Assembly: GCF_913058315.1 (NCBI RefSeq)
Contig: NZ_CAJXQY010000001.1
Location: 1 to 64,000, forward strand
Source: an uncultured Alteromonas sp.
GTDB taxonomy: Bacteria > Pseudomonadota > Gammaproteobacteria > Enterobacterales > Alteromonadaceae
DNA length: 64,000 nucleotides
Reading direction: 5' to 3'
Every line of letters starts with the position of its first letter. The stretch's first letter is position 1. The position numbers and the translations under genes are program-made. Positions 1,743-8,205 of the stretch are shown in pieces. Below the pieces are notes generated by a model. That model saw only the letters and a program-made list of their open reading frames with translations. It had not been told where the DNA came from and ran no database searches.

Positions 1743-2450
1743 CTACAGTGGTGTTGCTCTGAACCAGCCGGTCACTGATAGTCTCGGCGTTAACGAAAAT
1801 GGCGTGATGTAAGTAACACTATGAATGTGTTCCACATCGAAAATACTTAAGCTGTTGAAACCAGGCGCCCAGGCATCTCTTGGTGTACCGTTTTTTTCGT
1901 AGAACTGTAATAGCCCGCCCCAGTCAGGATGCCAGTTTGGCAAGAAGCTCAACACATAAGCAAGCCGGCGTTGCTCGGTGCTGTGGGTATCCATATGACG
2001 AGTTAAGAACTGGCCCGGCGTGTAACCTGTAGCCTGGGCACTGGCGGCAACAATATCCTGATGACCACTCATTTTACGCGCCCAATCCAACACGTCTTCG
2101 CTGTTTAACCACTGATGCAGTGCTGCCAGGTTAGGAATGGACTCACGCTGATTAGACAGCTGATACCTGCCATAAATGAAACCGACCCCCTTAGCCGCAT
2201 TTTGCATGGTTTCAGTATGAATACTTTGTTATTGATCTGTGGGTAATCGCTTCCACTCGTTATCAGCCAGTGTTGTTGGCCGGCCATTGCGAAGCAGCGC
2301 CAGGCTGTAAGGCGTTTCTTTGCTAAGACTAGTATAGAGCTACTCAGCCTGATCCATGGGAATTAAACTTTGTATTCTTACGCGCTTATCGTGCTGGTAT
2401 TCTGCATTTATTGCTGCAAAGTTGATGTCGGGATGAAAAGTAATCTGCAA
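1743..2450 (-). pseudogene. 2OG-Fe(II) oxygenase, broken by two in-frame stops
   Basis: The ORF track shows only the 154-residue C-terminal part (1743-2207). Reading the same minus-strand frame upstream gives a continuous oxygenase-like sequence, from about 2450 (TTG preceded by AGGA) through YQHDKRVRIQ, QAE-stop, SKETPYSLALLRNG, PTDQ-stop, QSIHTE and then the ORF. The stops are TAG at 2340-2342 and TAA at 2229-2231. The C-terminal half keeps the likely iron ligands (HxD in RHMDTHS, His in EHIHSV) and the 2-oxoglutarate-binding Arg near PRLSV. Intact relatives hydroxylate peptides or small molecules. A restart at the ATG at 2207 would give a core domain, but I see no ribosome binding site there. 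No frameshift was needed to join the parts, which suggests recent decay. Confidence 0.82.
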
Positions 2451-2727: not shown

Positions 2728-5709
2728 ATGACAAAAAATAATAATTCGCTAATTCGGCGCAAGCCATTAGCGTTAATAATTGGTGCGTTGTTAGCACCTC
2801 AAATGGCTTTTGCACAAGAAGCCGATTTAACGACAGCAGACGAAGCAGAAGAAGTAACAGAAAAAATTACCGTTACCGGTTCTCGTATCCGCTCAGGTGG
2901 ATTCGATGAAGCGCGACCGGTCGACATCATTGATGCTGATATGGCAATCGATCAGGGGTTAACCTCTATCGGTTCATTACTGCAAGCATCTACGGTTGCC
3001 GCGGGTTCTCCCCAGGTAACTGCTGCATCATCCATTGCGTTTAACACCAATGGTGGTGCTGGCTCACAAACACTTTCATTACGTGGCCTTGGTGCTAACC
3101 GTACATTGGTATTATTAAACGGTCGTCGTGCCGGACCTGCGGGTACCCGTGGTGGTGTAAGTTCTTTCGACTTTAACACACTGCCTATTTCTACCATTCA
3201 GCGTGTTGAAATCCTTAAAGATGGTGCATCGTCAGTTTACGGTTCAGACGCTGTAGCAGGTGTTGTAAATATCATCACTAAAAAAGATACTGGCGGTCAG
3301 TTTGACGTCTTTGCATCACAGCCCACAGAAAGCGGTGGTGAGCAATATCGTATCAGCGGTACTTATGGCAAGGCGCTCGATAAAGGCTTCTTTAGCCTGA
3401 CAGCCGATTATCAGTTAGACCGCGAATTAGCCAAAGGCGATCGCGACTACTTTAATTGTGGCGAGCGCTACGTTTTTGATCCAGCTACCGGACAGCGAGC
3501 CGACAATATCGATCCTCGTACCGGCAAGTACCACTGTAATGATCTGTTATGGGGCCACGTTTGGCTTTATGACTACCAGGATGGCGGCGCTACCGACAAC
3601 GTTCCTAATGGTGCCAAAGCCCAGTACGATTACGACGGTGATCTGGGCCAGTATATCCCTGGATTTAATCCAATCCCGGGTAACCCAAATAACATGAGAA
3701 CCCCTCCGGGATGGTTCCCGGTAAACTACGACGATGCATCTGATGCCGTGTCTAATGCCGACCACCCTTTCCAGGATACCTCTTCACTTATTCCTGAAAC
3801 AGAGAAAATTACCCTGTTTGGTCAGGCCGAGTACGAACTGAATGACCACACTCAACTGTATGCCGAAGCGCTGTTAAATCGTCGTACTACCGAGTCTAAC
3901 GGTTATCGTCAGTACTGGAGCTACATCTACAACGAAAACTTCTTTGCCGGTAACCCGTTAAGCGAAGGTTGGAGAGGTGCACAGTGGTTAAGCCCTACGG
4001 CGATTACCGACCACGCAGATGATAAGATTACCGTTGAATATCAGCGCTATGTTGCCGGTATTACTGGTGATATTGCCGGTACCGATTGGTACTACGATGT
4101 CAGCTATCAATACAGTAACAGTGATGGCGACTACGGCGGCGACATCATTTATGATGACGCGATCAGCGATCAGAACTTCCTGTCTGGCTCTTGTGCCGGT
4201 ACTACCACATCAGTTCGTGGCGTGGATTGTGTTGATATTCCATGGCTGGATCCGCAACTGCTGGCAGGTAATATCTCTCAGCAAGTCCGCGACTTTATGT
4301 TTGGTTACGAAGTGGGTAACACCAAGTATACCCAACAAACCTTTGAAGGTTTTGTATCTGGTCCGGTATTTGAATTACCGGCAGGTGAAGTCGGTGCAGT
4401 ATTCGGTGCGAGCTTCCAGAAAGACCGCATTAAGGATACTCCCGGAGAAGCAACCCTGGCACAAAATACCTGGGGCTCTTCAGCGGCTGGCATTACCTCT
4501 GGTAGTGACGAGACCAAAGCGGTCTTTACCGAGCTGAATATTCCGGTTATCAGTGATGTATTCCTGGCTCAGTTTATCGACGTAGAGTTATCAGCGCGTT
4601 ATACCGATGTGAAATCGTCAGGCGACGATACCACGTTCAAAATTGGTGTTAACTGGCAGATTGATGATCAGTTCCGTATTCGTGCATCGCGCGGTACATC
4701 GTTCCGTTCACCGGCATTGTTTGAGCTGTACCTGGCCGATCAAACCGGCTTCCTTGGGCAGCGCTCAGTCGATCCTTGTGTTAACTGGGGTAATAACCTG
4801 ACCGACGGCAGTATTTCACAGGCTCTTGCCGATAACTGTGCGGCAGATGGCATTCCTTCCGACTTTACCGGTGGCGCGATCTCGGCAACCACGGTAACTG
4901 GCGGTGGCTTTGGTGTACTTGAACCTGAAACGTCCGTGGCTAAAACCCTGGGTTTGGTGTGGACGCCAGAATTTGCTGACTTAAGCGTGTCGATCGATTA
5001 CTTTGACTTCTTAATTGAAGGGGAAGTTACTCAAATCGGTGCGGCCAATATCGTTAGCCGCTGTTATAACTCAGACTTCTTCCCAACCGATCCTATCTGT
5101 AGTCAGTTCGATCGTGATCCGGTAGATAACCGCATCACCGAAATCCGCGATAGCTTTATCAACGTTGCTGAACAAAGCAACCGTGGTTATGACATCGCGT
5201 TAAACTACAACGTGGATGTGGGTTACGGTGAAGTGACCTTTGATATGCAGCACACCTTCCAGAAAGAAGCCAGACAAGGCTTGTTCGAAGATACTGTTAT
5301 CGACACCAACGGTGAGTTTGGTGATCCTACACACGTAGCTAACTATAACCTGCGCTTCGACCGTAACAACTGGTCAGTAAACTGGCGGGTTAACTACATT
5401 GGCGCCGTGTCCAATGTCGACAGCTACTTCCAGCGCTCGGGCGACTACACTGCCACGGTTCGTGGTGATGAGGTTGACGTAGTATTGGCTTCAGACAGTG
5501 TTATGTATCACGCTTTCTCATTCACTTATGACTTTGCAGAAGATGGCCTGAAAACCACTCTGGGTGTGTCTAATGCATTCAATAAGAAGCCACCTCGGGT
5601 GACTACATTGAATCTGGGTGAGCTAAACACCGAAGGTAACTCTGCGTTCTACAGTCAGTATGACTGGTACGGACGCCGTATCTTCCTGAACGCTACATAC
5701 CAGTTCTAA
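2728..5709 (+). CDS. TonB-dependent outer-membrane receptor
   Basis: A 993-residue TonB-dependent receptor. It has a signal peptide (residues 1 to about 29, ending AFAQ), a TonB-box-like ITVTGSRI stretch, then a plug domain with VLLNGRRAG and VEILKDGASSVYGSDAVAGVVNI. A long 22-strand barrel follows and ends in the terminal phenylalanine (YQF) typical of outer-membrane proteins. Such receptors import large or scarce ligands using energy passed on by TonB. The plug resembles receptors often found beside tryptophan-halogenase-like genes in Alteromonadales and Caulobacterales, and such genes lie immediately downstream. The ligand cannot be read from sequence. GGAG nine bases before the ATG supports the start. 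Confidence 0.93.
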   Translation: MTKNNNSLIRRKPLALIIGALLAPQMAFAQEADLTTADEAEEVTEKITVTGSRIRSGGFDEARPVDIIDADMAIDQGLTSIGSLLQASTVAAGSPQVTAASSIAFNTNGGAGSQTLSLRGLGANRTLVLLNGRRAGPAGTRGGVSSFDFNTLPISTIQRVEILKDGASSVYGSDAVAGVVNIITKKDTGGQFDVFASQPTESGGEQYRISGTYGKALDKGFFSLTADYQLDRELAKGDRDYFNCGERYVFDPATGQRADNIDPRTGKYHCNDLLWGHVWLYDYQDGGATDNVPNGAKAQYDYDGDLGQYIPGFNPIPGNPNNMRTPPGWFPVNYDDASDAVSNADHPFQDTSSLIPETEKITLFGQAEYELNDHTQLYAEALLNRRTTESNGYRQYWSYIYNENFFAGNPLSEGWRGAQWLSPTAITDHADDKITVEYQRYVAGITGDIAGTDWYYDVSYQYSNSDGDYGGDIIYDDAISDQNFLSGSCAGTTTSVRGVDCVDIPWLDPQLLAGNISQQVRDFMFGYEVGNTKYTQQTFEGFVSGPVFELPAGEVGAVFGASFQKDRIKDTPGEATLAQNTWGSSAAGITSGSDETKAVFTELNIPVISDVFLAQFIDVELSARYTDVKSSGDDTTFKIGVNWQIDDQFRIRASRGTSFRSPALFELYLADQTGFLGQRSVDPCVNWGNNLTDGSISQALADNCAADGIPSDFTGGAISATTVTGGGFGVLEPETSVAKTLGLVWTPEFADLSVSIDYFDFLIEGEVTQIGAANIVSRCYNSDFFPTDPICSQFDRDPVDNRITEIRDSFINVAEQSNRGYDIALNYNVDVGYGEVTFDMQHTFQKEARQGLFEDTVIDTNGEFGDPTHVANYNLRFDRNNWSVNWRVNYIGAVSNVDSYFQRSGDYTATVRGDEVDVVLASDSVMYHAFSFTYDFAEDGLKTTLGVSNAFNKKPPRVTTLNLGELNTEGNSAFYSQYDWYGRRIFLNATYQF

Positions 5710-5724
5710 GCATTACTTAACGCA

Positions 5725-5759
5725 GAAAGCCGGCTGACAGTGTTAGCCGGCTTTCTTTT
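5725..5759 (+). terminator. Intrinsic terminator after the TonB receptor
   Basis: Eleven-base stem GAAAGCCGGCT / AGCCGGCTTTC with a 9-nt loop, followed by TTTTA, 15 bases after the receptor stop codon. It separates the receptor from the sulfotransferase-halogenase pair, which therefore needs its own promoter or readthrough. Confidence 0.85.
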
Positions 5760-5799: not shown

Positions 5800-6591
5800 A
5801 TGAATCCTCGAATTTACGCGAAAAGCGATAACCTCAATGAATTAAATGCCGATTACGAACAAACCCCATTGCAACAAGGGGTGTTTTTAAATTCGGTGCC
5901 TAAATGTGGAACTCACCTGCTACGCAATATATTCCGGATGTTTGTGCCGGTTGAGCAGCAATACCACAACGACTTTATTCAATTTCCCACGTTGCCAAAA
6001 AACATGGCGGCGTTTGATCCGGCCAGCCCAAAGTTAAGCTGGGGACATCTGCTATTTTCCGATCAGTCTGCGTTGGCGCTCAGCACGGTTAAACAGGTAT
6101 TAATTGTCCGCGACCCCTACGACTGGGTACTGGCCCGCGCCCGGTTCTTTTTGTCAGATACCTTTCAGGCGCAGCTGGATCACCTCAAATCGGGCAAGCT
6201 GAATATTGAGGAAATACTCAATATGATGATTTTTGGTATTCATCAGCGGGTGCCGGACTTAAAAGATATATTTACCCACAACGGTGTAGCCTGGCTGGGT
6301 ACCGGGGTAAAACTGGTGCGCTATGAAGACTTGATCTGCCACCTCAACGATCTGAACAGTAAGCGGGCACAAGCCTACTTTACCGATTTACTGTCGGTGC
6401 TGGGCATTAACGAGTTGCCGGCAGACTGGCAACAACGTGTGGCAACTGGCGCCGACCGCAAACAAAGCGGTACCGCCAGAGAGAACCTCAAAGAGGTCAG
6501 TCACGAGATCCCGGCAATATTGCCGCCGGCTCAGCGTCAGCTGGTTGACTTTGCCGCACCGGGTTTACGTCAGATCCTGGGGTATAACTAA
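5800..6591 (+). CDS. Sulfotransferase-like protein
   Basis: A 263-residue protein with sulfotransferase features. NSVPKCGTHLL (residues 31-41) matches the loop that binds the 5'-phosphosulfate of PAPS, and VRDPYDW near residue 103 matches the 3'-phosphate-binding motif. Such enzymes move a sulfuryl group from PAPS to a hydroxyl or amine on a sugar, lipid or small molecule. No signal peptide is visible. Only 3 bases separate it from the halogenase gene, so the two are almost certainly co-transcribed and may modify the same product. There is no strong Shine-Dalgarno before the ATG at 5800. The acceptor is unknown. Confidence 0.78.
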   Translation: MNPRIYAKSDNLNELNADYEQTPLQQGVFLNSVPKCGTHLLRNIFRMFVPVEQQYHNDFIQFPTLPKNMAAFDPASPKLSWGHLLFSDQSALALSTVKQVLIVRDPYDWVLARARFFLSDTFQAQLDHLKSGKLNIEEILNMMIFGIHQRVPDLKDIFTHNGVAWLGTGVKLVRYEDLICHLNDLNSKRAQAYFTDLLSVLGINELPADWQQRVATGADRKQSGTARENLKEVSHEIPAILPPAQRQLVDFAAPGLRQILGYN

Positions 6592-6594
6592 GCA

Positions 6595-8205
6595 ATGACT
6601 AAACGACTTGCGATAATCGGAGGCGGCTCGGCAGGCTGGATGGCTGCGGCCTACCTACATAGTATACTTAACGCCCGGGGCCAGCAGCAAAATGTTAGCA
6701 TTGAGCTGGTCGAGTCGCCGGATATCCCGCGCATTTCAGTGGGTGAAGCAACGGTGCCATCCATCCGGCATTTGCTGAGTGTTATCGGTATCGACGAAAT
6801 TGAGTTTATGCGTGCTACCGATGCTTCCTTCAAGCAGTCTATAAAGTACGTAAACTGGGTGCACAATAACAACACTTTTTATCATCATCCTTTTACCAGT
6901 ATGCGCGTCCAACCGGTCGACTTTGCGGGAATAAACTGGCTCAAAAGCGATCGTTCCATTCCCTTTATGGACACCTGCTCTACGCAGCCGCTAATTTGCG
7001 AGTGGGGGCTGGCCCCTAAAGTCATAAAGCCCGGCGCCAGTACCCCTCTGAAATATGCGTATCATATGAATGCGCAAAAATTTGCCGATTACCTGCGCGA
7101 TATTTCGGTTGCCAGAGGGGTAACGCATACCCGGGCCAATATAGGTGAGGTAAAAACAGCTGCCAATGGTCACATTCAGTCGGTGGCACTGGATAATGGT
7201 CAGTCGGTGCAGGCGGATTTATACGTTGATTGCACCGGCTTTAAAGCCTTACTGATGGAAAAGACCCTGGCTGAGCCTTTTGTTTCGTTGTCACAATATC
7301 TCTTGTGCGACAGGGCAGTGACCATGCATGTCCCTTACGACACGCATTACCCGGGGATGGTGCGGCCCTATACCACGGCTACAGCCATGTCGAATGGCTG
7401 GATATGGGACATCCCTATGGCCAATCAGCGCTCAGTGGGCTATGTCCATGCCAGTCAGTTTATTTCTAAAGAAGCGGCCGAACGAGAGTTAAGGGCTTAT
7501 CAGGGCCCCAATACTGAAAACCTGTCGCCACGCTTTGTCGATTTTAAAGTGGGTCATCGTAAACGGCACTGGGTAAACAATTGCATTGCCATTGGCTTAA
7601 GTGGTGGTTTTATTGAACCGCTGGAATCTACCGGGCTGTTTCTGGCTGATATGGGGGCGGTCATGCTGGCCGAACATTTCCCGCACAGTGCCGACGATAT
7701 GACCGTGTTAGCCGAACGCTACAATCGCCTGATGAGCAATCGCTACTATGAGATCCTCGATTTCATCAATATGCATTATTGCTTAACTCAGCGTACCGAC
7801 ACGGCTTTTTGGCAGGCTGTTCAACAACCTGAACACATTAATCCGCGTTTACAGGCCAAGCTGGATTACTGGAAACATAAACCGCCTTCGCCATCTGATT
7901 TTGAAGATCAGATGCTGCCAGGAATGGATCATGCTGCCCGTTTCAACGGCAGAGTTATTACTGATACGGCGGGACTATGGAATCACGAAAGTTACGAGTG
8001 CATTTTATACGGCATGCACTTCGCCGCTGACCATTACCGGCAAAAGTTTGGCAATACGGGTAAACCTGTCAGTATGAATCAGGAGATCCTGATGCGCCTG
8101 AAAGCGGCCCGCCAGGGCTTACCGCCTCACGCGATTTGGCTGGAACAAAGGGCGGGTAAAGCGATGTATCAAACGGCCTATACACCTCATGGTTGGGTGG
8201 CTTAA
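6595..8205 (+). CDS. Flavin-dependent tryptophan-halogenase family protein
   Basis: A 536-residue FAD-dependent halogenase homologue. The FAD-binding GGGSAGW is at residues 9-15. SVGEATVP follows, then ASFKQSIKYVNW, whose K80 lines up with the catalytic lysine (K79) of PrnA and RebH. The halogenase signature WxWxIP is present as WIWDIP (269-274), and PLESTG supplies the conserved glutamate region. All key residues are therefore retained. The family uses FADH2 from a partner flavin reductase plus halide to halogenate aromatic rings. No reductase gene is visible here, and environmental members next to TonB receptors mostly lack a proven substrate. It is cotranscribed with the sulfotransferase. 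Confidence 0.88.
   Translation: MTKRLAIIGGGSAGWMAAAYLHSILNARGQQQNVSIELVESPDIPRISVGEATVPSIRHLLSVIGIDEIEFMRATDASFKQSIKYVNWVHNNNTFYHHPFTSMRVQPVDFAGINWLKSDRSIPFMDTCSTQPLICEWGLAPKVIKPGASTPLKYAYHMNAQKFADYLRDISVARGVTHTRANIGEVKTAANGHIQSVALDNGQSVQADLYVDCTGFKALLMEKTLAEPFVSLSQYLLCDRAVTMHVPYDTHYPGMVRPYTTATAMSNGWIWDIPMANQRSVGYVHASQFISKEAAERELRAYQGPNTENLSPRFVDFKVGHRKRHWVNNCIAIGLSGGFIEPLESTGLFLADMGAVMLAEHFPHSADDMTVLAERYNRLMSNRYYEILDFINMHYCLTQRTDTAFWQAVQQPEHINPRLQAKLDYWKHKPPSPSDFEDQMLPGMDHAARFNGRVITDTAGLWNHESYECILYGMHFAADHYRQKFGNTGKPVSMNQEILMRLKAARQGLPPHAIWLEQRAGKAMYQTAYTPHGWVA

Follow-up and report, generated by a model that had tools for sequence, protein, structure and literature searches.

The window analysed here, a stretch of 64 kb, carries on its plus strand, in this order, the predicted genes of a TonB-dependent receptor (TBDT), a sulfotransferase (ST) and a halogenase (HAL), with a terminator-like hairpin between the first two (Table 1). 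Only 3 nt separate the ST stop codon from the HAL start codon on the same strand, and the arrangement given in the first-pass annotation, sulfotransferase and halogenase 3 bases apart with a TonB receptor adjoining them, is correct. Conservation of TBDT, ST and HAL extends in each case over hundreds of codons, so that none of them is a chance open reading frame. The decayed oxygenase that had been noted beside the set is also real, as two in-frame stop codons lie just upstream of the listed reading frame in the window and the frame is open in a near relative (locus L010). Its membership of the unit was considered and rejected, since among the relatives only L010 carries the oxygenase.

Table 1. 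Features of the TBDT-ST-HAL locus in the 64-kb window, and related tandems elsewhere in the same genome.
Feature	Position	Strand	Evidence	Remarks
TonB-dependent receptor (TBDT), 993 aa, plug and 22-stranded barrel	2728..5709	+	Pfam, AlphaFold2, PDB fold matches	core member
Intrinsic-terminator-like hairpin, 15 pairs and U-tract, between TBDT and ST	5724..5756	+		
Sulfotransferase (ST), unclassified family, 263 aa	5800..6591	+	fold search, model, 65 relatives, invariant K35/H83/R104	core member
Flavin-dependent halogenase (HAL), 536 aa, own clade	6595..8205	+		accessory member
2OG-Fe(II) oxygenase remnant, pseudogene	1743..2207	-	Pfam 2OG-FeII_Oxy_4, in-frame stops	neighbour outside unit
TPR-sulfotransferase tandems	L123:1104-5868 (contig C43), L124:194-4313 (contig C173)			enzyme 73-91 bp behind TBDT, hairpin in gap

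The receptor contains the Pfam Plug and TonB_dep_Rec_b-barrel domains. Its AlphaFold2 model (pLDDT 80; 22 strands in the barrel according to its DSSP string) has siderophore and vitamin B12 receptors as its best fold matches in the PDB.

No Pfam family matched the ST of the window at E<=0.001; Sulfotransfer_1 gave E 0.013 and 15.4 bits, below its gathering cut-off of 22, and the best E-value reached with Sulfotransfer_1, 2 or 3 among 36 members of the ST family was 2.2e-4. A sequence search of the solved chains in the PDB gave no relevant match. When the AlphaFold2 model of ST, built from 36 relatives (pLDDT 91.8), was compared with the PDB by Foldseek, the best match had an E-value of 5e-6 and a probability of 1.00, and all 50 of the matches listed are PAPS-dependent sulfotransferases and their relatives. 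Alignment of 36 sequences revealed invariant residues in the motifs PKxGTH (K35 and G37, with T38 conserved in at least 90%), WGHLLFSD (H83) and VRDP (R104), the equivalence of active-site positions being taken from these motifs. Within the 3'-phosphate site (RxPxDxxxS) R104 is invariant and the expected serine is an equally invariant Ala112. Given the absence of a Pfam match, the sulfotransferase fold, the retention of Lys, Gly, His and Arg and the change from Ser to Ala112, ST belongs, as far as sequence and model can tell, to an unclassified family of sulfotransferases whose PAPS cofactor site is nearly complete, and we infer that it uses PAPS. It defines a family of sulfotransferases that Pfam does not score. 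The first pass had proposed a PAPS-type enzyme and a look at its structure for the cofactor site; the fold matches bear this out, and the PAPS-type site (K35, H83, R104) is present in near-complete form.

HAL matches Pfam Trp_halogenase (PF04820) over residues 5-483 with 455.7 bits (cut-off 21) and a solved Trp 5-halogenase with E 4e-91. The window protein contains GGGSAGW (FAD), Lys80, GWIWDIP and Glu344-Ser345, so that the earlier description of a halogenase homologue with all catalytic residues holds; across the HAL alignment K80 is conserved in 44 of 46 sequences and E344 in all 46. By every sequence test applied HAL is a PF04820 flavin-dependent halogenase, and it can be predicted to halogenate. 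Compared with RebH, the C-terminal substrate segment, where residues bind the amino-acid part of Trp, differs and aligns poorly. The best NCBIfam matches, all far below cut-off, include QhpG, LodB and GoxB, which act on protein residues. Paralogues in the same genome are 31-37% identical to HAL, which forms a separate clade. Six genomes belonging to one family (G053, G091, G196, G226, G236 and G314; loci L088, L090 and L099-L102) have a tandem duplicate of HAL behind ST, and the second copies form a branch of their own.

A genome-wide search for ST found 65 relatives with 52-96% identity; they come from Alteromonadales and related groups, Woeseiaceae, Hyphomonadaceae and Brevundimonas. In 52 of these loci the gene immediately upstream of ST encodes a full-length TBDT, and the number with a linked TBDT rises to 59 when inverted arrangements and genes truncated by contig ends are included; HAL-type genes occur at 33. 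Arsukibacterium and Pseudidiomarina are examples of genera in which both ST and HAL are present. Among 395 genomes of the order, ST was found in 16, and these are exactly the genomes that have the matching TBDT clade (at least 54% identity); HAL was found in 11 of them and in no other genome. Under independence the chance of two identical sets would be 1/C(395,16) = 8e-29, a figure uncorrected for shared descent. TBDT and ST are side by side in all carriers of the order (15/16) except one genome, G304, in which TBDT and HAL lie together on contig C1 and ST alone on contig C9. Since ST has been retained there on a separate contig, the co-occurrence of TBDT and ST is not merely physical linkage.

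The same association was observed further afield. Of 384 genomes drawn from the phylum, six contained ST (one being that of the window), with TBDT adjoining it in all six, and no ST was found in those whose best TBDT was at most 40% identical. At six loci ST lies away from TBDT, at a contig end or behind an extra TBDT; each of these genomes has a related TBDT, which in L052 and L073 is no more than a partial match of 42-43%. Woeseiaceae, Hyphomonadaceae and Brevundimonas also carry the TBDT-ST pair, frequently without HAL. ST and HAL had been proposed as the conserved pair, with a search of relatives as the check. The two genes are indeed co-conserved, but HAL proved to be an optional accessory and TBDT the constant partner. 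A core of ST and HAL was rejected because HAL is missing from five of the 16 ST genomes of the order, and it is also contradicted by 11 of 12 further ST genomes, mostly from Alphaproteobacteria, in which no HAL was found at E<=1e-90.

The comparison showed, at the level of gene content, that a single TBDT clade is obligately paired in inheritance with a single ST family, a particular HAL clade being an optional third member. Across marine Proteobacteria the joint inheritance of TBDT and ST has almost no exceptions, and the two very probably constitute a functional unit. The outer neighbour genes vary among groups of ST loci around this constant core; the cassette is therefore conserved and its surroundings are not. 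No other gene is conserved with the pair across the ST loci, including any pathway gene, catabolic gene or inner-membrane transporter, and a test for a precursor peptide (RiPP) found no small ORF common to more than four of the loci. In a single case (L086:10932-11783) a DUF692 gene of the RiPP-modifying MbnB/TglH/ChrH type follows directly behind the pair. In Woeseiaceae (L041:4311-9604) the genes flanking ST and HAL encode an Asp/Asn beta-hydroxylase-like protein that stands alone and a TPR protein that also contains such a domain, and genes similar to these flankers occur in L034 and L048.

A hairpin with a T-rich tail was found between TBDT and ST in 44 of 52 loci, in both classes, compared with eight of 520 shuffled spacers. 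It probably limits read-through into ST and HAL. In many loci the start of ST lies only 20-45 nt beyond the hairpin, leaving little space for a promoter of its own, which suggests read-through. Comparable hairpins are located behind other TBDTs of the host genome; the element is therefore probably a general means of tuning the ratio of receptor to enzyme rather than special to TBDT and ST.

Five TBDTs without ST, of 42-47% identity and including a paralogue in the genome of the window (contig C9 of G000, L083), allowed the receptors to be compared by ST status. In the tree they nest within the ST-linked clade, so ST has probably been lost in them; supports on the path to them are mostly 0.94-1.0, with two nodes at 0.79 and 0.83 and the innermost at 0.28. 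An S9 prolyl-oligopeptidase-type gene lies 64 bp downstream of the paralogue (L083:7789-12766), and likewise in L092, which hints at peptide uptake. Fifteen TBDT columns are conserved in the presence of ST and changed in the five receptors without it. Seven of these 15 fall in the extracellular loops L2 (about residues 232-356) and L3 (391-431), compared with 31 of 219 other conserved columns (Fisher p 0.004, uncorrected for the kinship of the five). Most distinct among them are Tyr399 and Tyr401, the Tyr-x-Tyr of a YRQFWxYxY motif, which show 96-97% conservation in receptors with ST and are missing from all five that lack it; the count of Tyr in loop L3 is 4.4 with ST and 1.2 without. At one locus, L098, ST is kept and both tyrosines are lost, so these two cannot be the sole target. 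Tyr residues with acidic flanks are equally frequent in TBDTs with and without ST. A receptor Trp that follows the presence of HAL was considered as the HAL target and rejected, as no aromatic column of TBDT tracks HAL and the Trp content of the loops does not differ with it.

Related enzymes also occur beside other receptors of the same genome. Two further TBDT-sulfotransferase tandems (L123 and L124) carry an enzyme of a different type, TPR plus Sulfotransfer_3, which suggests a wider, unnamed theme of TBDTs with sulfotransferases. Halogenase paralogues of PF04820 were found in the arrangement TBDT-SapC-Cupin_8-HAL-HAL (L125), with a TBDT and GH9, GH10 and GH3 (L126), as HAL-HAL adjoining GH5 (L127) and with a TBDT, GH20 and LacI (L129). 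Some of these paralogues adjoin TBDTs in cellulose/xylan and hexosaminidase loci, where the ligands are presumably glycans and not aromatic. A Trp-type halogenase cannot halogenate glycans, which leaves the receptor as the common partner.

The explanation favoured here, with a probability of roughly 0.4, is that ST and HAL are dedicated, cytosolic tailoring enzymes of their own TBDT. The receptor would be made in excess, and ST and HAL in smaller amounts through read-through of the hairpin behind its gene. In the cytoplasm, before export, ST would move sulfate from PAPS onto aromatic side chains of TBDT and HAL would add halogen to such side chains. The modified residues would be borne by the extracellular ligand-binding loops L2 and L3, which are rich in Tyr and Trp, and would tune ligand binding. 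Modification of the receptor is favoured by the exact co-occurrence of TBDT and ST in the order and in the phylum draw, including the unlinked ST of G304, by the change of L2/L3 columns and of Tyr399 and Tyr401 in the absence of ST, by the PF04820 paralogues and TPR-sulfotransferases that accompany other TBDTs of the genome, and by the NCBIfam neighbours of HAL that act on protein residues. It is weakened by the fact that the receptors without ST form one clade, so that their loop changes could equally reflect a single ligand switch, and further by the loss of both tyrosines in L098, the lack of a column tracking HAL and the equal frequency of acidic-flanked Tyr. The TBDT chain as substrate is a weaker step than the existence of the unit. 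It is proposed still more tentatively that sulfation and halogenation of the extracellular loops before export belong to a system for receptor maturation; the many genes for halogenases, Cupin_8, SapC and TPR-sulfotransferases found next to TBDTs would then be additional cases of it. To our knowledge, sulfation or halogenation of an outer-membrane protein before Sec export has not been reported.

Second in rank, and rather unlikely, is a role of the enzymes after uptake: TBDT would import one conserved compound, aromatic or peptide-like, which ST, and HAL at the loci that have it, would sulfate and halogenate in the cytoplasm, so as to inactivate it or convert it into another product. The structural neighbours of ST, such as the SULT family and StaL, act mostly on small hydroxylated molecules, the columns that track ST sit in ligand-binding loops, and the S9 peptidase gene, which often adjoins ST-linked TBDTs of Hyphomonas and follows two of those without ST, would fit a peptide ligand. 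Doubt arises mainly because paralogous halogenases accompany TBDTs with presumed glycan ligands, and the pair has no conserved companion gene for catabolism or for transport across the inner membrane. The locus had been described as a small set for modifying or taking up an aromatic or peptide-like compound; the gene set stands, whereas an aromatic ligand is disfavoured by the paralogues in glycan loci and by the lack of a pathway or precursor gene.

The enzymes might instead decorate a small aromatic made by the cell itself, siderophore-like or a signal, which would be exported and taken up again through TBDT. The fold of TBDT, nearest to siderophore receptors, and the strict co-occurrence with ST would agree with such a cycle, but the cassette is not accompanied by an NRPS, a PKS, a precursor peptide or an exporter, and related halogenases lie in glycan loci, which makes this third reading improbable. 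Neutral hitch-hiking of ST and HAL, as unrelated enzymes moving with TBDT on transferred DNA, is disfavoured and appears very improbable: the patchy distribution of ST (found in 16 of 395 genomes and in none of the six listed genomes of the same genus) would fit block transfer or repeated loss, but ST has kept an invariant active site at 52-70% identity across two classes, has been retained unlinked in G304 and remains part of a constant core around which the flanking genes have changed.

The proposed modification of the receptor by ST and HAL would bear on the natural substrates of this type of halogenase, which is present in many environmental Proteobacteria. The one-to-one link between a TBDT clade and ST, together with natural versions that lack ST or HAL, makes the role of enzymes beside TonB receptors addressable on a single outer-membrane protein. 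A literature search found no paper describing the TBDT-ST pair or relevantly joining receptor, halogenase and sulfotransferase.

The nearest halogenases that have been discussed are the PF04820 enzymes at TBDT loci of the BrvH and Xcc4156 type: indole was judged possibly not to be the natural substrate of BrvH (PMC5945002), and the substrate suggested for Xcc4156 is a peptide or a larger derivative of Trp (PMC7336383). HAL belongs to the same superfamily but differs in forming a separate clade tied to the ST-TBDT pair. ST shares its fold, the PKxGT loop, the catalytic His and the 3'-phosphate Arg with the cytosolic SULT family and StaL, from which it differs in its low identity (12-18%), in the replacement of the 3'-phosphate Ser by invariant Ala112 and in scoring below the Pfam cut-offs. 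A protein Tyr, as proposed here for ST, is also the target of the bacterial PAPS sulfotransferase RaxST, the tyrosine sulfotransferase of Xanthomonas (PMC4216712), likened here by its description. The partners of RaxST are a secreted peptide and a type I secretion system, whereas that of ST is an outer-membrane receptor. The logic proposed for TBDT and ST, one cytosolic enzyme per outer-membrane protein with the genes adjacent, is that of the AAH/AIDA-I and HMW1C/HMW1 operons. In these, cytosolic glycosyltransferases modify the partner adhesin before its export; ST and HAL would sulfate and halogenate where AAH and HMW1C glycosylate.
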